The notes beneath the pieces are model-generated. The model was not told where the DNA came from and ran no database searches. It saw only the letters and a program-made list of their open reading frames with translations. Below are positions 1,742 to 49,199 of a stretch of DNA of 64,000 nucleotides, one piece after another. The stretch spans positions 186,001-250,000 of the forward strand of contig NZ_CAMKWA010000002.1 in NCBI RefSeq assembly GCF_946476835.1, given 5' to 3'. Each line of letters opens with the position of its first letter. Position 1 is the first letter of the stretch. Both the position numbers and the translations under genes were made by a program. The stretch comes from an uncultured Neokomagataea sp. (lineage in GTDB: Bacteria > Pseudomonadota > Alphaproteobacteria > Acetobacterales > Acetobacteraceae).

Positions 1742-4057
1742 TCAATCTTCGAGAACACGGTCTTGTCGTTCACGCGGCAAACGGCTTTCTGGCAAAGCCT
1801 TCTCCCGCGCAGCAGAACCACGCCCAGACAATGAGGGGTTATTCATGAAGTAGTCATGCGCAGAGAAAGGCTTACTCCCTGGTGCAACACGATGCCAACT
1901 CCCATCTTTCGACAGGGTCCAGCTTTGCAGCGTGTCCTTCAGATTAACCGTCATAATCTGACCCAAAATCTGCGCATGAACGGTTGTGTTCGTAATGGGC
2001 ACCAGGGTTTCTACGCGCCAGTCCATGTTACGCACCATCCAATCCGCAGATGAGATGTAAACCTTAGCCTGATGCGACGGCATACGATGGCCATTACCGA
2101 ACGCATAGATACGAGAGTGCTCAAGGAAGCGACCAACAATAGACTTGATCTCAATGTTTTCCGACAGACCCGGCACACCCGGCCGCAAACAGCAAATACC
2201 GCGGATAACACCAACAACCTTCACGCCAGCCTGAGATGCTTCATACAGAATGTCGATCAATTCAGCATCAACCAGACTGTTCATCTTCAGCCAAATCTTT
2301 GCCGGGCGCCCTGCTTTCGCATGCTCGATTTCTTCACGAATCAACGATTCCAAAGTTGAGCGTGTCGTCATTGGGGAGAATGCTAGCGCGTCCATCTTCT
2401 CCGGCGTTGCATAGCCTGTCATGTAGTTAAACAAACGCGCAGAGTCAGAAGCCAGCGTACGGTCACATGTAAAGAAGGAAAGGTCCGTGTAAATACGCGC
2501 TGTGATCGGGTGGTAATTACCCGTGCCAAAATGTGCGTAGGAACGCAGGTTATTACCTTCACGACGGACCACCAAGCTCAACTTGGCGTGCGTTTTCAAA
2601 TGTGTGAAGCCGAACACAACCTGTACACCCGCCGCTTCAAGCGCACGAGAGAGGCGGATATTAGCTTCTTCATCAAAACGCGCCCGCAGTTCCACCATTG
2701 CTGTGACGGATTTACCGGATTCTGCGGCCTCAATCAGGGCCTGTACAATCGGGCTATCACGGGATGTACGATATAATGTTTGTTTAATGGACAGAACGTT
2801 CGGGTCCCGCGCTGCCTGACGCAGGAACTGCACCACCACATCAAAGCTCTCAAACGGGTGATGAACAACTATATCTTTCGCACGAATTGCCGCGAAGCAG
2901 TCCCCATCATAATCCAAAATCCGCTCTGGGAAACGCGGCGTATAGGATGGGAACACCAAGTCTGAACGATCGTCCACAATCAATTGCTTCAGGTCAACCA
3001 CCCCGACGAAACCGGGCAGAACCATTACATCTTCATCGCCAACGCCGAGTTCTTCACCCAGTTCACGGCCCAGATCTTCCGGCAAACGACGATCAAGCGC
3101 CAAGTGAATGCCTACACCACGGCGGCGCTGCTTCAGGGCCGTCTCATACGAGCGGACCAAATCTTCGGCTTCATCTTCGAACTCAACATCCGTATCGCGG
3201 ATAATGCGCAATACGCCAGCTTCACCAATGTTCAAACCGGGGAACAAACGGCTCGCAAAAAGACGAATCAAATCTTCCAGAAGAATAAAGCGAATTTCAC
3301 TGGTCGCTTTACCCTCTGCATCAACCTTTGCAGGTAAACGCACCAAACGCGGCAATTGAGTCGGCAGAAGAACCAACCCATCCATCACTGGCGCGCCCGT
3401 GGCCTCATCCTTCAGGCGCAAGACCAATGCCAGCCCCATATTCGGGATAAACGGCAAAGGGTGTGACGGATCAACAGCCAGAGGCGTCAAAACAGGGAAA
3501 ACCCGCTCATCAAAAATCGTTGAAAGCTGCGCGTAATCCGCTTCATCCAACGTATCCGGAGAGAGAATGCTAATCCCCGTTTCTTTTAACTCTGCTTCCA
3601 GAATACCCCAAACCCGTTGCTGCTCCTCCATCAAGAAGCGGGCTTTTTTACGAATCGCCGCCAACTGCTGCGCTGGCGCCAGACCATCAGGGCTGCGTAC
3701 CACCATGCCTTCACGGACTTGCCCCACCAAACCCGCAACACGCACGGAGTAGAACTCGTCCAGATTGCTCGCGCTGATTGACAAAAAGCGTACCCGCTCA
3801 AGCAACGGGTTCTTAAGGCTCTCCGCTTCTTCAATCACGCGTTGGTTAAAGTCTAACCATGACAATTCACGATTCAAAAAGCGTTCTGGAGACGTCCGCA
3901 TTGCAGCATAATCCTGTACAGTCTTAGGGCTAGTCCGCCTCCGGGTCGTCCGCGTTGATGCCCCTCGTGTACGAGACGTCGTTACAGGTTTAGTGCTCGT
4001 TGACGTTGTACGACTGCGCGTACGGCGCGGAGCGGGCTTTTTATCATCTGTCGTCAC
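1742..4057 (-). CDS. ppk: polyphosphate kinase 1 (RNA degradosome-family PPK1)
   Basis: PPK1 reversibly transfers the ATP gamma-phosphate to a growing polyphosphate chain. The N-domain signature [15 protein letters not shown] is clear, as are the two active-site histidines: THAKLSL (about residue 490, equivalent to E. coli H435) and FLEHSRIY (about 647, equivalent to H592). The ORF track extends to a TTG at 4108, but that has no ribosome binding site. I prefer the GTG at 4057, preceded by GGGAAAG, giving 771 residues. Before the PPK core there is a tail of about 50 residues very rich in Arg, Thr and Ser, unlike ordinary PPK1 N-termini. It is first in an operon with ppx; hdaA lies upstream on the same strand. 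Confidence 0.95.
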
Positions 4058-42461: not shown

Positions 42462-43502
42462 TCAAAAAAACGGATGCAGCGCGTTTTCAAACAAATCCGT
42501 GCAGGCTTCCCACGTGAAGCGCTCGGCATGTTTCCGGCATTCTGCCCGATCAGCCTTCAGCGCCGCCAAACACGCAGCCTTCAGGTCAGGCCCAACAGAA
42601 CCAATACGCCCATCCGTCCCGGCAAGAATATCGCGTGGCCCCGTCACATCATATGCGGCGCACGGCGTGCCACTGGCCAATGCCTCCAACAACACAAGGC
42701 CAAACGTATCCGTCACACTTGGGAACACGAAAACGTCTCCCCCGGCATAAGCTGCGGACAGTTCACCCTCGTCCAAACGGCCCGTAAAAAAAGCCTGAGG
42801 AAATTTCTGCTCCAAAGCCGGGCGCTGTGGCCCATCACCTACAACCACTTTCGTTCCAGGAAGGTCGAGCGACAAAAACGCCTCAATATTCTTTTCAACT
42901 GCAACGCGCCCAACATAAATAAAAATCGGCCCCGGCACTCCAAGGCGTGCTTGCCAGTCACAACGTGGCTCCGGCGCGAAACGCTCCAAATTAACCCCAC
43001 GCGTCCATGGGCTTAAACGCGTAAAGCCACGGCCTTCCAGATCTTTCCGCAAGCTTGCCGTGGCAACCAACGTCGCCGAGGCCGCATTATGAAAATGCCG
43101 TAGCAAACGATAAGACAGGTTCAGACCAAACTTAATCCGCGCCTGCACATATTCCGGGAAACGTGTGTGATAGGACGTCGTAAACGGCACACCCTTCTTA
43201 CGCGCCCAACGCCAAGCGGCCCAGCCAATGGGGCCTTCTGTAACGATGTGCAAAACCTCAGGGCGAAACTCCCGCATAATCTGCGCGAACTTCCCACCCG
43301 GCCGCGTCGCCAAGCGAATTTCTGGATAGGTCGGGCACGGCACCGTGTGGAACTGATCTGGCCCCACAACACGCACCTCATGGCCGCGCTTGCGCAGTTC
43401 TTCTACCACGATGGACATTGTCCGCACAACGCCATTGACCTGAGGGTGCCACGCATCCGTAGCAATCAAAATACGTCGTAAAACGCGAGGTGTCTCTGTC
43501 AC
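42462..43502 (-). CDS. agt: GT4 glycosyltransferase (glycosyltransferase family 1 annotation), Agt-like lipid glycosyltransferase
   Basis: A 346-residue GT-B glycosyltransferase. The N-terminal acceptor half opens with ILIATDAWHPQVNGVVRT and contains HIVTEGPIGWAA; the donor half has PIFIYVGRVAVEKNIEAFL and FGLVLLEALASGTPCAAYD, the nucleotide-sugar binding region. Relatives include mannosyl and glucosyl/glucuronosyl transferases that act on diacylglycerol. Its GTG start overlaps the phosphoesterase TGA (GTGA), so it is coupled to a PlcP-like protein. In other Alphaproteobacteria this pair (PlcP, Agt) replaces phospholipids by glycolipids during phosphate shortage. The symbol is therefore an inference from context. 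Confidence 0.8.
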   Translation of the reverse strand: MTETPRVLRRILIATDAWHPQVNGVVRTMSIVVEELRKRGHEVRVVGPDQFHTVPCPTYPEIRLATRPGGKFAQIMREFRPEVLHIVTEGPIGWAAWRWARKKGVPFTTSYHTRFPEYVQARIKFGLNLSYRLLRHFHNAASATLVATASLRKDLEGRGFTRLSPWTRGVNLERFAPEPRCDWQARLGVPGPIFIYVGRVAVEKNIEAFLSLDLPGTKVVVGDGPQRPALEQKFPQAFFTGRLDEGELSAAYAGGDVFVFPSVTDTFGLVLLEALASGTPCAAYDVTGPRDILAGTDGRIGSVGPDLKAACLAALKADRAECRKHAERFTWEACTDLFENALHPFF

Positions 43503-44407
43503 GCTGTTTGCTTTGCTTCAATCGTGGTCTCAGATGCCATACCCTGCTGCATCATCTGCGCTAGTACAGGCTTCAAATCATCCCCAAGCGCACCAGCAGG
43601 CTTGTTGATTTCAGAGAGAGTGGTTTTCCATGCCTCATGCATCCGCGCGGTCCAGTCCACGAGTTCAAACTGGCCATCCCATTTTTCCACCAGAGCCGTG
43701 CAGCTTTCGACCCAATCCCCTGTGTTCATATAGGTCACACCGCCAATATCGCGGATTTCAGCCGTATGAATATGCCCACAAATCACACCATCTGCGCCAA
43801 TCTGCTTCGCTTCACGCGCCAGAGCCATCTCAAAACGATCAATCGCTTTAACCGCACTTTTCACGCGCTTTTTGGCCCATGCAGAGAACGAGCGATACGG
43901 CAAACCTAACTTACGACGCGCGACGTTAATCCAACGATTAAGGAAAAGCGCCGCCGTATAGGCATGATCACCCAACACAGCCAAGAGCGGATAACAGCGG
44001 ACGATGCTATCAAACTCATCGCCATGAATAACCAAATATTTACGCCCATCCGCAGCAACATGCTCAGCCTTTGGCACCAAGCGGATAGACGCAATTTTCA
44101 ATTCCATCGAAAGCCAGTTGCGCAGCATTTCGTCATGGTTACCGGGGATGTAAATAACTTCCGTGCCATTGCGCGCCAACCGCAGAATAAGACGCAAGAA
44201 TTCATCATGCGCTTCATCCCAATACCACGCCCGCCGAAGTCTCCACCCGTCAATAATATCACCAACAAGGTAGAGGCGTTCACACGTAATAGTACGCAAG
44301 AAATCAGTCGTCAGAGCAACACGACTTCCTCGTGTACCCATATGAATGTCCGAAATAAAAACCGATCGGTAAGACGTCGGCTCGGAACTTTCCACTGTGA
44401 AACGCAT
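43499..44407 (-). CDS. plcP: PlcP-like phospholipase C / UDP-2,3-diacylglucosamine diphosphatase-family metallophosphoesterase
   Basis: A calcineurin-type metallophosphoesterase of the LpxH-like (COG2908) group, 302 residues. The metal ligands are clear: SDIHMG, GDIIDGW, GNHDEM, VIHGDEFD and CGHIHTAE. Automated annotation will call it UDP-2,3-diacylglucosamine diphosphatase. Alphaproteobacteria typically use LpxI for lipid A, and members of this group paired with an Agt glycosyltransferase act as phospholipase C (PlcP), freeing diacylglycerol from phospholipid. Overlap with the glycosyltransferase and a candidate Pho box upstream support that reading. The divergent lipid kinase strengthens the lipid theme. 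Confidence 0.82.
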   Translation of the reverse strand: MRFTVESSEPTSYRSVFISDIHMGTRGSRVALTTDFLRTITCERLYLVGDIIDGWRLRRAWYWDEAHDEFLRLILRLARNGTEVIYIPGNHDEMLRNWLSMELKIASIRLVPKAEHVAADGRKYLVIHGDEFDSIVRCYPLLAVLGDHAYTAALFLNRWINVARRKLGLPYRSFSAWAKKRVKSAVKAIDRFEMALAREAKQIGADGVICGHIHTAEIRDIGGVTYMNTGDWVESCTALVEKWDGQFELVDWTARMHEAWKTTLSEINKPAGALGDDLKPVLAQMMQQGMASETTIEAKQTA

Positions 44408-44476
44408 GGGACCCGCCCCCTCGCTATTACAGTCCTAGGACGTATTCTGTCTTAAACGATTCCTCCTCTGTGCCAC

Positions 44477-44494
44477 GTGACAGTTTCATGATTT
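44477..44494 (-). promoter_or_regulatory. candidate Pho box upstream of plcP
   Basis: On the minus strand AAATCAT-GAAA-CTGTCAC resembles the PhoB consensus CTGTCAT-AWAW-CTGTMAY: the second half fits fully, the spacer fits in three of four positions and the first half in four of seven. It lies about 70 bases upstream of the plcP start and within the divergent promoter region of the lipid kinase. Confidence 0.4.
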
Positions 44495-44589
44495 CGCTTC
44501 CGTGCCGATAGTCAGAACCCCAAGAATAGCGTTCAAATCATTCCATAGAGGCTTAACCTTATTATGCGGTTTCGACAGGAGACGGCACC

Positions 44590-45495
44590 ATGTACGTGAT
44601 CCACAATCCCACAGCGGGCCGCCGCAACACACGCAAACTCTGGGCCGTTCTCGACTGCCTTCTTGCGCATGGCATTTCCGTTAAAATCATGGAGACCCGT
44701 TACGGTGGGCACGCCTCAAGCCTTGCCCGAGAAGCCGCTGAGGCTGGCGCACGCATCATCATTGCCGCAGGCGGCGATGGCACCATTGCAGAAACTGTCG
44801 CCGGTATGATCGGCAGTTCAGCCCGCCTAGGGATTATCCCTCTCGGCACGGCCAATGTTCTCGCCCATGAATATGACATCCCCTTCCATACCAAAGACCT
44901 CGCCGCCACTCTGACATCCCCACACAGCACCCCTCTCTGGCCAGGCATGATGCAAACCAATCATCAAACCAAACTTTTTGTTCAGATGGTTGGTGCCGGT
45001 TTTGACGCCCATGTCGTGCATGCCATCAACCTACGCCTCAAACGCGCTGTCGGGCGGAATGCCTATATCATTCAAACACTGACAGAACTGCCCAAATACC
45101 CCTTCCCAGACCTAACCGTCACCGTCGATGGCAGCACCTATACCGCCGCCAGTGCCATTATCAGCAAAGGCCGCCTCTATGGTGGACCTTACACACTCGA
45201 CCCAACCGCGCGCCCAGATCGCCCAGGATTTTCCATTACTTTATTCCGCCATGGCGGTGTTTTTTCTGCCCTACGCGCAGGAATGGCGCTCCCACAAAGC
45301 CGCATGAGCCGCCTACCGGGGGTTATCTCCCTCAAGGGGGCACACGTGACAATCTCTCACCCCGATGGCGTCCCCCTTCAAGCTGATGGAGACGCCGCCG
45401 GTCATACGGCGGTTACCCTCAAAGATGCAGCACAACCTGTGCAACTCGCCACACCTGCCAAAAACCCGTTTATCGACTCACGACTCTTCACCTGA
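44590..45495 (+). CDS. diacylglycerol kinase family lipid kinase
   Basis: A 301-residue soluble lipid kinase (DAGK catalytic / YegS-like). The phosphate-binding start HNPTAGRR, the ATP-binding GGDGTIAETVAG and GTANVLAHE are present. AGGAG stands 8 bases before the ATG. It would phosphorylate diacylglycerol or a related lipid, which suits its position divergent from the plcP-agt pair. Its last 18 bases overlap the convergent mgtC gene. Confidence 0.88.
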   Translation: MYVIHNPTAGRRNTRKLWAVLDCLLAHGISVKIMETRYGGHASSLAREAAEAGARIIIAAGGDGTIAETVAGMIGSSARLGIIPLGTANVLAHEYDIPFHTKDLAATLTSPHSTPLWPGMMQTNHQTKLFVQMVGAGFDAHVVHAINLRLKRAVGRNAYIIQTLTELPKYPFPDLTVTVDGSTYTAASAIISKGRLYGGPYTLDPTARPDRPGFSITLFRHGGVFSALRAGMALPQSRMSRLPGVISLKGAHVTISHPDGVPLQADGDAAGHTAVTLKDAAQPVQLATPAKNPFIDSRLFT

Positions 45496-46206
45496 GTTCC
45501 AAAACGCCTGCCGAACACCTTCCATATCTTCAACACGCTCCATCGCAATATCCAGCTCTTCCACTTGCACGGCTGTTGCGTAGAGCGTGAAGGACAACTC
45601 CACCTCGTCATCACCAAATGGATGGTCCTCAATCTGCCGGACGGGATAGCTGGCCAACTCCAAAATCTCCGCAACGGCATCACGCAGATCAGACCGCACC
45701 CAACGTTCACAAATCACATAAACCACATAAGTGGCCTCACCGCTTTCCTCACGGAACGGCAAACGATTGATGTGATTAACAAGCGGCCTCAGCAGCGTGT
45801 TTGATGCCAAGACGAAAAACGCCGCTAAAAACGCTTCATCCAAAATCCCGGCACCAGCACATGCCCCCACCGCGCCGGAGCCCCACACGGTCGCCGCGGT
45901 GTTCAGGCCAGACACACTAGCCCCTTCTTTCATAATCGCCCCGGCCCCCAAAAAGCCGATACCCGACACGACATAGGCCACAATCGTAATCGCCGTCTGA
46001 GAGCCACCCTGCAACTCATGCAGACGCGTCCCCAGAGACACAAAAATCGCAGCCCCAACAGCAACCAGCGTATTCGTACGCAACCCCGCCGTACGCTGCC
46101 GCACCTGCCGTTCAATGCCGATGATCCCGCCCAGCACAAACGCGCAAAGCAGATTCACCAGAGTTTCACCCGTTTCACTTAAGGTCGCAAAATGCCAGCC
46201 GCTCAT
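45478..46206 (-). CDS. mgtC: MgtC/SapB family membrane protein
   Basis: A 242-residue protein with an N-terminal MgtC-type membrane domain of about five helices (LLCAFVLGGIIGIERQVRQRTAGLRTN is the family signature) and a soluble ACT-like C-terminal domain (about 160-240). MgtC restrains the F-type ATPase and supports growth in low magnesium in Salmonella. The gene follows mgtA by 29 bases on the same strand, so it is probably co-transcribed with the magnesium pump. Confidence 0.92.
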   Translation of the reverse strand: MSGWHFATLSETGETLVNLLCAFVLGGIIGIERQVRQRTAGLRTNTLVAVGAAIFVSLGTRLHELQGGSQTAITIVAYVVSGIGFLGAGAIMKEGASVSGLNTAATVWGSGAVGACAGAGILDEAFLAAFFVLASNTLLRPLVNHINRLPFREESGEATYVVYVICERWVRSDLRDAVAEILELASYPVRQIEDHPFGDDEVELSFTLYATAVQVEELDIAMERVEDMEGVRQAFWNSGEES

Positions 46207-46235
46207 GAAGCCTCTTTATTTGTCTGATCGTGCAC

Positions 46236-49022
46236 TCACACCCACCCGAAGCGGCGCGCATAAAATCTCTTCATGACTGTCGTCAGCACAGCATAACCCA
46301 GCACAATCAGCATAAGCCATGGGTAAAACGTGCCCGGAAGTGCCTCAAACCCAAAATACCCCGCCAAAGGGCTCATCGGCAAAAAGATCCCTAGCGCGAT
46401 AATCAGCACCGTCGTCACGATCAGCGGAAAAGATGCCGTGCTTTGCAAAAATGGCAACTTGGGAGAGCGGATCATGTGCACAATCAATGTCTGGGTCAAA
46501 AGACCTTCCACAAACCACCCTGACTGAAACAAGGCTTGATGCGCAATATCATCAGCGCCGAACACCCACCACAACAGCATATACGTCGCGATATCAAACA
46601 CCGAACTCAATGGACCGAAAAAGAGCATGAAGCGCCCAACATCCTTTGGGTTCCACTTCAAAGGCTTTGCCACCAAATCACGGTCCACATTGTCAAAAGG
46701 CAGCGCAATTTGCGAGATATCGTACAGCAAATTTTGCACCAGAAGCTGTAACGGCAGCATCGGCAAAAAGGGTAAAAATGCACTGCCAATCAACACCGAG
46801 AACACATTCCCGAAATTAGAACTCGCCGTCATACGAATATATTTGAGCATATTCACAAAGGTCCGGCGCCCTTCCAAAACGCCCTGCTCCAACACCATCA
46901 AACTCTTTTCTAGTAAGATAATATCTGCCGCCTCCTTCGCGATATCGACGCCCGTATCAACCGAGATACCCACATCAGCCGCACGCAAAGCCGGGGCATC
47001 ATTAATCCCATCCCCCATAAAGCCCACAACATGCCCATTGGCACGCAAAGCACCGACAATCCGGTCTTTATGCGCTGGGGTCAGGCGCGCAAACAACTGG
47101 TGCCGCTCAACCGCATGCGCCAGCGTCTCATCATTCATCTTCTCAATCTGAACGCCCAGCAAATAGCGGCAATGCTCCAACCCCACTTGGCGGCAGACCT
47201 GCAAGGCCACAAGCTCCGTATCCCCAGTCAGAACCTTTACCGCCACACCGTGCGATGCCAAAGCCTTCAACGCTGGGGCCGTGCTTTCCTTCGGCGGATC
47301 CAAAAAGGCCATATACCCTAGCAGCGTTAGCCCAGCTTCATCCGGCACACCAAAAACCGATTGCTCACCCAAATCCTCACGAATGGCCACGGCAACCACG
47401 CGCAAGCCCTGCCGATTCAAATCAGCCGCTACCGCCCGAACACGCTCCAACATTTCTTGGTCCAGAGCGGTGCTTTCAGCCTGCTTACTCAAACGCACAT
47501 GCGTACAGGCCGACAGAATTTCCTCCAGCGCACCTTTACAAATTAACGTCCGTTCACCGCTTCCACCTTCCACGATGACCGACATACGCTTGCGCTCAAA
47601 ATCAAACGGAACCTCGTCAACCTTGGTGTAACCCTGCGCATTCACCAACTCATGCTGTAACTCCACATGCTGCAAAACGGCATGATCCAGAAGGTTTTTT
47701 AGCCCCGTCTGATACGCACTATTCAAATACGCATAACGCAACACATCATCTGAAGAGTCACCCAGCACATCGGTATGACGCTCCAGCGCAATCCGATCCT
47801 GCGTTAACGTCCCCGTCTTATCGGTACAAAGAACATCCATCGCTCCAAAATTCTGGATTGCGTCCAGATGCTTCACGATAACCTTCTTGCGGGACAGTGC
47901 CACCGCGCCCTTCGCCAAGGTTGACGTCACAATCATCGGCAACATTTCAGGCGTCAGCCCCACCGCTACCGATAATGCAAATACCGAAGCCTCGACCCAG
48001 CTTCCTTTCGTGAACCCATTAATCAAGAGCACTACTGGCGCCATAATCAGCGCAAAACGGATCAAGAGCCAGCTAACACCATTCACCCCAGCTTGAAACG
48101 CCGTCGTGCTCCGGTCCTGCATGCCCAAACGTTCAGACAATGTCCCAAAATACGTCTGACGCCCCGTCGCCACCACCAGTGCGACGGCCGAACCCGAAAC
48201 GACATTTGTGCCCATGAACACCAAATTCGCGGCATCAAACACCGTCTCAAAGGGCTGATCCAATGCCGAAAACTTTTCAACGGGCAATGCTTCCCCCGTC
48301 ATGGCAGCTTGGGAGACAAACAAATCTTTAGCCGTTAGCAAACGGCAATCCGCCGGGATCATATCCCCGGCCGAGAGAACCACATGATCACCCGGTACCA
48401 ACTCACTGATCGGTACTTCGACATGCCGAGTATCACTATCCAAATGCAGGTTCACGCCAAAATATTTGCGCCCAATCCCGACAATTTCATCATTCATAGA
48501 CGGACGGCGGAGCACGGAGGCTGTGGTGCTCACCATATTTTTCAAGCGTTCCGCCGCTTGATTGGACCGTCCCTCCTGCACGAACCGAATCAGCGTGCTC
48601 AGCAGCACCATCGTGCCAATAACAATGGTGGCCCGCAGATCATGCGTCAGCCCTGATAGCAGAGCCAAAATACTCAAAAGAACATTAAACGGGTTCCGAT
48701 AGCACTGCCACAAATGCCGCCACCACGGCATAGCAGCTTCATAGTCAACCGTATTCGGACCAAAACGCTTGCGGTATTTTTCAACCTCAAGCTCCGTCAA
48801 ACCCTCTTCATGCGAAGACAAACGCGCAATAGCTTCCAGCACATCATCTTGCGCCACACGCCGCATCGCCCGAGAAACATACCGAAAAGCCCGGTCATGC
48901 TTAGGGTTCGCAGAAGAACGAAACGTCTCCAAAATCGCTCTTCGTCGTAAATGCCGAGCCGTCTTGTGGCGCGTGAAAAACACACCAAACAAGGCCTGAA
49001 ACAAACGATCAAAATGGCTCAT
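46236..49022 (-). CDS. mgtA: magnesium-translocating P-type ATPase
   Basis: A P3B-type ATPase of 928 residues with the phosphorylation site CTDKTGTLTQDR, the TGEALP actuator loop, GDGINDAPALRAADVG and ten membrane helices. It imports magnesium. The track's start at 49082 adds a hydrophobic run; ATG 49022 (MSHFDRLFQ) has GGGA 6 bases upstream and is preferred. An inverted repeat ends right at that ribosome binding site. It forms an operon with mgtC, as in Salmonella mgtCB in reverse order. Confidence 0.94.
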   Translation of the reverse strand: MSHFDRLFQALFGVFFTRHKTARHLRRRAILETFRSSANPKHDRAFRYVSRAMRRVAQDDVLEAIARLSSHEEGLTELEVEKYRKRFGPNTVDYEAAMPWWRHLWQCYRNPFNVLLSILALLSGLTHDLRATIVIGTMVLLSTLIRFVQEGRSNQAAERLKNMVSTTASVLRRPSMNDEIVGIGRKYFGVNLHLDSDTRHVEVPISELVPGDHVVLSAGDMIPADCRLLTAKDLFVSQAAMTGEALPVEKFSALDQPFETVFDAANLVFMGTNVVSGSAVALVVATGRQTYFGTLSERLGMQDRSTTAFQAGVNGVSWLLIRFALIMAPVVLLINGFTKGSWVEASVFALSVAVGLTPEMLPMIVTSTLAKGAVALSRKKVIVKHLDAIQNFGAMDVLCTDKTGTLTQDRIALERHTDVLGDSSDDVLRYAYLNSAYQTGLKNLLDHAVLQHVELQHELVNAQGYTKVDEVPFDFERKRMSVIVEGGSGERTLICKGALEEILSACTHVRLSKQAESTALDQEMLERVRAVAADLNRQGLRVVAVAIREDLGEQSVFGVPDEAGLTLLGYMAFLDPPKESTAPALKALASHGVAVKVLTGDTELVALQVCRQVGLEHCRYLLGVQIEKMNDETLAHAVERHQLFARLTPAHKDRIVGALRANGHVVGFMGDGINDAPALRAADVGISVDTGVDIAKEAADIILLEKSLMVLEQGVLEGRRTFVNMLKYIRMTASSNFGNVFSVLIGSAFLPFLPMLPLQLLVQNLLYDISQIALPFDNVDRDLVAKPLKWNPKDVGRFMLFFGPLSSVFDIATYMLLWWVFGADDIAHQALFQSGWFVEGLLTQTLIVHMIRSPKLPFLQSTASFPLIVTTVLIIALGIFLPMSPLAGYFGFEALPGTFYPWLMLIVLGYAVLTTVMKRFYARRFGWV

Positions 49023-49030
49023 AAACATTC

Positions 49031-49047
49031 CCGGTTTTAAAAACCGG
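49031..49047 (-). promoter_or_regulatory. inverted repeat overlapping the mgtA ribosome binding site
   Basis: CCGGTTTT-A-AAAACCGG forms an 8-1-8 inverted repeat whose last bases run into the GGGA ribosome binding site of mgtA. A loop of one base means the inner pairs must open, but a stem would still tie up part of the binding site. Confidence 0.35.
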
Positions 49048-49199
49048 CCCCTATGCAGGAGAAATACCGACAAACGCAGCATGGAGTGAGGCGGGTTCTA
49101 ATCTCAGAACAGCACCGCCCTCAGTTGCGGGGGCAATGTGCACACCCTCTCACAACAGAGCAATCCAATATGAATATATATGAGAATACTTAAAGTTTA

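Follow-up and report, generated by a model that had tools for sequence, protein, structure and literature searches.

Does the small divergent locus at positions 42462–45495 of the window (the whole 64,000-nucleotide stretch of DNA analyzed, from a 2.44-Mb genome of an uncultured Neokomagataea sp.) encode a phosphate-controlled exchange of membrane phospholipid for glycolipid, or a lipid A enzyme that happens to lie beside an envelope sugar transferase? The first-pass annotation, made from the sequence alone, had claimed the former, describing a phosphoesterase and a glycosyltransferase gene that overlap by 4 bases and a lipid kinase gene divergent from both. All of this layout was reproduced from the ORF coordinates, with the overlap at 43499–43502, and the features are as follows.

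42462–43502, minus strand: agt, 346 aa with a GTG start; GT4 glycosyltransferase with Pfam GT4 domains, predicted diacylglycerol glycosyltransferase
43499–44407, minus strand: plcP, 302 aa; COG2908-type (calcineurin-like) metallophosphoesterase, predicted cytoplasmic phospholipase C
44408–44589: divergent promoter region between plcP and the lipid kinase gene, 182 bp
44475–44494, minus strand: candidate Pho box upstream of plcP, core ATCATGAAACTGTCACGT, conserved in family promoters and also found before pstS; the form given in the first-pass annotation, AAATCATGAAACTGTCAC (AAATCAT-GAAA-CTGTCAC), occupies 44477–44494
44590–45495, plus strand: lipid kinase gene, 301 aa; YegS/DgkB-type, predicted diacylglycerol (DAG) kinase, divergent from plcP-agt

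Beyond these features, mgtC-like and P-type ATPase (mgtA-like) genes at 45478–49082 run convergent to the lipid kinase gene and overlap its end by 18 bases; such genes adjoin the cassette in the Neokomagataea loci and not in the Acetobacter loci examined.

The identity of the phosphoesterase was examined against references of both kinds. The PlcP references were a Sinorhizobium meliloti gene located near genes for a LuxR regulator and an acyl-homoserine-lactone synthase, which we take to be SMc00171 beside sinR/sinI, and a Pseudomonas aeruginosa gene upstream of a transferase gene that adjoins a cyclase gene, presumably the PA3219-PA3218 pair beside cyaB; E. coli LpxH and LpxH chains from the PDB served as the LpxH references. 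The window protein is 45% identical to the product of the S. meliloti PlcP locus and 49% to that of the PA3219 locus, compared with 20–27% to LpxH proteins, and it contains the motifs GNHD and CGHIH at the positions where the alignment shows GNRD and HGHTH in LpxH. In the maximum-likelihood tree, LpxH was separated at 100/100, a split that, across the long branches between the groups, is independent of the placement inside either side, and the window protein fell on the PlcP side among Acetobacter and other Acetobacteraceae. The best NCBIfam and PDB matches of the protein are LpxH models and structures, with scores against the two NCBIfam LpxH models (56 and 53 bits) that miss both cut-offs (134 and 190). 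Lying outside the LpxH clade and below the LpxH model cut-offs, and having no GNRD, the protein does not classify as LpxH, and this identity was rejected given the 100/100 split and the grouping with the PlcP loci. Tree, identities, and motifs thus agree with the earlier assignment, and the protein is very probably PlcP, a predicted phospholipase C by analogy with its relatives; enzymes of this class cleave phospholipid (PE, PG, or PC) to DAG in a Mn-dependent manner. The first-pass annotation had also foreseen that automated annotation would mislabel the gene as a lipid A enzyme, and this is what the plasmid-borne homologues show: wherever the gene under the match is annotated, it is called “UDP-2,3-diacylglucosamine diphosphatase.” It had further looked to an lpxI gene elsewhere in the genome; the search detected one, at 155.7 bits against a cut-off of 25, with both LpxI domains and adjoining an lpxA-like gene, so that a lipid A role for the phosphoesterase is not needed. 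Of the outcomes that the first-pass annotation had named as refuting it, neither a grouping with true LpxH nor a lack of lpxI was thus observed.

The overlapping gene encodes, as proposed, an Agt-like transferase. Its motifs GRVAVEKN and FPSVTDTFG fit the patterns GRVAXEKN and FPSXTDTFG, the UDP-sugar motifs reported for GTcp of SAR11 and homologous enzymes (PMC8231724). The His of the dyad is located within SYHTRFPEY and its Asp within SVTDTFG, and the protein is 47% identical to the product of the P. aeruginosa Agt1 locus (PA3218). The gene lies directly downstream of plcP in 25 of the 27 Acetobacteraceae loci and in 30 of the 33 class loci, the latter coming from other alphaproteobacterial families. 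A UDP-glucose dehydrogenase-like gene is located two genes from pstS in this genome; a supply of UDP-glucuronate is therefore probable, and the predicted Agt could form a glucuronosyl lipid.

Phosphate control of the pair was examined at the Pho-like site upstream of plcP. Compared with CTGTCATN4CTGTCAT, this site has 10 matches out of 14, its first half-site, AAATCAT, being a poor match to CTGTCAT, and a second 10/14 site is located nearer plcP. Consensus-only scoring was dropped because about 7% of the shuffles of the intergenic region equal this value, and phylogenetic footprinting was used instead. Unsupervised motif search of 21 non-redundant plcP/kinase intergenic regions from Acetobacteraceae returned gTCATGnAAnCgTCACGT, a lengthened version of the site originally noticed, with a score of 509 compared with 276 ± 5 for the shuffles (maximum, 287). 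When nine sequences were aligned, 12 columns were invariant and 10 of these lay inside the Pho box; the conserved site is oriented to plcP, not to the kinase gene, in 21 of 22 promoters. With the plcP-derived matrix, the plcP site is the top match in the 64-kb window (25.2 vs 13.0 for the runner-up), and the genome contains a single exact match to the extended pattern. Given that related sequences inflate the motif score, an independent test was made in which the matrix, trained on plcP promoters only, was applied to the promoters of the PstS genes of the family: scores above 5 were obtained for 20 of 22 pstS promoters and for none of 66 control stretches (strand and gene-body controls). The PstS gene of this genome itself has GTCATGAAACTATCATGG, nearly the plcP site, 40 bp upstream of its start. 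The candidate Pho box, weak on consensus, is thus backed by conservation and by the occurrence of the same motif before pstS, and the matrix is usable for Acetobacteraceae. Further Pho-like matches to this matrix were observed at 1842–1859 of the window (13.0 bits) and at 1751–1768 of locus L059 (17.4 bits).

The corresponding regulatory genes are present in the genome as a pstCAB-phoU-phoB-phoR operon. PstC, PstA, PstB, and PhoU score above the NCBIfam cut-offs; PhoB is just short of its cut-off (289 vs 296.2) and PhoR is short of its own; these two were named by context. The true PstS (TIGR00975, 373 bits) is encoded away from this operon, and no convincing Pho box was found before pstC of the operon in this genome. 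PstS candidates on contig C17 were rejected as paralogues without a Pho site; on this contig, locus L101 (7133–9147) encodes two tandem PstS-like binding proteins beside TonB receptor-like genes and with no Pho box, possibly representing another uptake system. In locus L099 (6417–9922, contig C9), the pstS Pho box has tandem 11-bp repeats; on its other side come a divergent gene for a secreted or outer-membrane-like protein without a Pfam match, with weaker Pho-like sites before it, and then the UDP-glucose dehydrogenase gene.

The kinase has a DAGK_cat domain (PF00781) with GGDGT and a YegS C-terminal domain, exceeds the cut-off of TIGR00147 (128.5 vs 118.65 bits), and has DgkB as its best solved relative; the kinases of Neokomagataea thailandica and N. 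anthophila are 98% identical to it. It is the only strong DAGK_cat match in the genome, which encodes just one other, weak DAGK-domain protein, and no DgkA-type kinase was found there. A second divergent pair, in which a YegS-like kinase gene (weak DAGK_cat match of 34 bits) faces away from one for a calcineurin-like phosphoesterase, was observed in locus L065 of contig C4 of the same genome (910–1857, minus strand, and 2064–3011, plus strand). The window's kinase gene has its counterpart divergent from plcP in 21 of the 27 loci from the family and in 15 of the 33 from the class, fractions that describe the best-scoring loci and are not unbiased estimates. In the genus set, all 5 genomes with plcP have it, as opposed to none of the 22 without plcP; across the family, a good homologue is present in 16 of 22 plcP-positive compared with 3 of 18 plcP-negative genomes (p = 0.0005, kinship ignored). 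The linkage and co-occurrence, together with the absence of DgkA, make a part in the same system likely, and the kinase probably belongs to the PlcP-Agt system; most likely, it is a DAG kinase forming phosphatidic acid, its substrate and timing being the least certain points of the scheme. It may return DAG to phospholipid when phosphate is supplied again, in line with the reversible module of the first-pass annotation, or it may limit DAG while phosphate is scarce. In Pseudomonas, DagK is reported as one of the PHO-dependent proteins of phosphate starvation (PMC5082522), which favors an action of the kinase during starvation.

Taken together, we are confident, though not certain, that the locus specifies PhoB-controlled membrane lipid remodelling by PlcP and Agt, with phospholipid replaced by glycolipid. 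This reading is based on gene content, family placement, the detection of both lpxI and a pst-pho operon, conservation of the Pho box and its sharing with pstS, and linkage; the activities of PlcP and Agt and the binding of PhoB are predicted from relatives. At low phosphate, PhoR-PhoB would act at the Pho box to bring about transcription of plcP-agt, and PlcP would cleave inner-membrane phospholipids to DAG and a phosphoalcohol, freeing phosphate. Agt would then add a sugar from UDP-glucose or UDP-glucuronate to the DAG, yielding a phosphorus-free glycolipid, and the divergent kinase would most likely phosphorylate DAG to phosphatidic acid, limiting a surplus or feeding phospholipid synthesis. 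A broader proposal, which we rate as likely as not, is that the kinase forms a standing third part of plcP-agt systems in many Alphaproteobacteria. It would serve there as a valve from DAG to phosphatidic acid, restraining or undoing the exchange of lipids, and its gain and loss would follow those of the exchange.

Two alternatives concern the pair itself. If the phosphoesterase were LpxH and its neighbor an envelope sugar transferase, the LpxH hits at the top of the NCBIfam and PDB searches and the lipid A label on the homologues would be readily explained; the NCBIfam scores are, however, far under the model cut-offs, and the phylogenetic split, the grouping with the PlcP loci of S. meliloti and P. 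aeruginosa, GNHD in place of GNRD, and the lpxI gene all oppose this explanation, as does the absence of the gene from 21 genomes of the same genus, which would be forbidden for an essential lipid A step without a replacement. We therefore consider it extremely improbable. Somewhat less remote, although still improbable, is a PlcP-Agt pair that works constitutively or under another signal (acid, ethanol, or Mg), with the Pho box as a relic. The departure of the first half of the box from the classical consensus and the convergent mgtC/mgtA-like genes that follow the kinase gene immediately in Neokomagataea would fit this view. Against it, no other stretch between the two genes is as conserved as the box, the same motif recurs before pstS, and the examined Acetobacter loci have no mgtC/mgtA adjoining the cassette.

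A more substantial alternative, which we nonetheless find doubtful, accepts remodelling by PlcP-Agt as proposed and treats the kinase as a neighbor that acts outside this process on ceramide, phosphatidylglycerol, or some other lipid. The YegS family varies in substrate: phosphatidylglycerol is the substrate described for YegS, and CpgB of Caulobacter is described as phosphorylating ceramide and, in vitro, DAG as well (PMC10331486). The direction of the conserved site toward plcP in nearly all promoters and the retention of a homologue in three plcP-negative genomes point the same way. Against this stand the divergent linkage across the family and the class, the co-occurrence in the genus and family sets (the latter, again, with kinship ignored), and the same three annotations found together in SAR11 HTCC7211 and in the HIMB59 phosphate islands (PMC3686209, PMC10734472).

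PlcP was detected in 218 of 300 genomes from Acetobacteraceae and, at the level of the class, in 124 of 290; being widespread in Alphaproteobacteria, the cassette is not new in kind. The first-pass annotation had presented it as not known in acetic acid bacteria, and literature searches on the cassette in acetic acid bacteria, and on Acetobacteraceae together with PlcP and phospholipid, found no paper, but in genomes the cassette is common across Acetobacteraceae. Among acetic acid bacteria, its distribution is patchy: four Neokomagataea-like genomes have plcP and 21 others of the same GTDB genus are without it, and Acetobacter sicerae has the cassette. Across the family, 6 of the 22 plcP-positive genomes have no good kinase homologue. 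The mgtC homologues of plcP-negative relatives are ~40–60% identical and not clearly orthologous, so mgtC does not mark an empty site in these relatives. Several plasmid records were observed alongside. In a Roseomonas mucosa plasmid (locus L050, 3974–5548), plcP is followed by a methyltransferase-domain gene, not agt, which hints at another non-phosphorus lipid; a P. aeruginosa plasmid record (locus L049, 3989–5853) contains an apparently chromosomal PA3219-PA3218 (plcP-agt1) segment; and Pannonibacter and Fuscovulum plasmids (loci L052 and L053) encode distant PlcP-like proteins (~32–37%) paired with “ceramide glucosyltransferase” genes.

Sparing phosphate in the membrane is a strategy documented mostly in rhizobia, marine bacteria, and Pseudomonas; these findings would extend it to acetic acid bacteria and to Acetobacteraceae as a family. 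They also flag a recurring annotation, in which PlcP is called a lipid A enzyme and which reappears where phosphate islands have been interpreted in print, and they open the part played by the linked DAG kinase to direct testing, with Neokomagataea and the plcP-negative members of the GTDB genus that were searched providing natural comparison pairs.

Among known systems, LpxH resembles the window protein in its calcineurin-like phosphoesterase family and metal motifs and differs from it in the low identity (20–27%), in GNRD/HGHTH as opposed to GNHD/CGHIH, and in its separate clade. S. meliloti PlcP (SMc00171), 45% identical, shares the metal-binding blocks but, unlike the window, plcP has neither agt nor the kinase gene in the locus examined. 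For the trio, parallels are found in marine bacteria: the HTCC7211-only gene list of SAR11 includes a DAG kinase, a metallophosphoesterase/“LpxH,” and a glycosyltransferase together (PMC3686209), and the phosphate islands of HIMB59 combine DGK, “LpxH,” and a glycosyltransferase, the authors reading the phosphoesterase as LpxH for lipid A (PMC10734472); the likeness to the window is one of three annotations in phosphate-related contexts of marine Alphaproteobacteria. In the phosphate-starvation proteome of Pseudomonas putida BIRD-1, DagK is counted with PlcP as lipid renovation, is PHO-dependent, and acts during starvation, not only on recovery; no statement on divergent linkage of its gene was found in the text of that study (PMC5082522). 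The word “kinase” was not found in the texts, as checked, of two surveys of plcP neighborhoods (PMC4796936, PMC9239053). Characterized plcP-agt loci match the gene adjacency of the window (PMC4796936, PMC9239053, PMC8528852), and those of Methylosinus trichosporium OB3b, “Ca. Pelagibacter” HTCC7211, Erythrobacter, and P. aeruginosa (PA3219-PA3218) share with it the two genes, their order, the family placement, the Agt motifs and, in reported cases, an upstream Pho box. The locus described here differs from them in its acetic acid bacterium host, in the divergent lipid kinase gene, and in the family's own form of the Pho box, TCATNNAANNNTCAYG.
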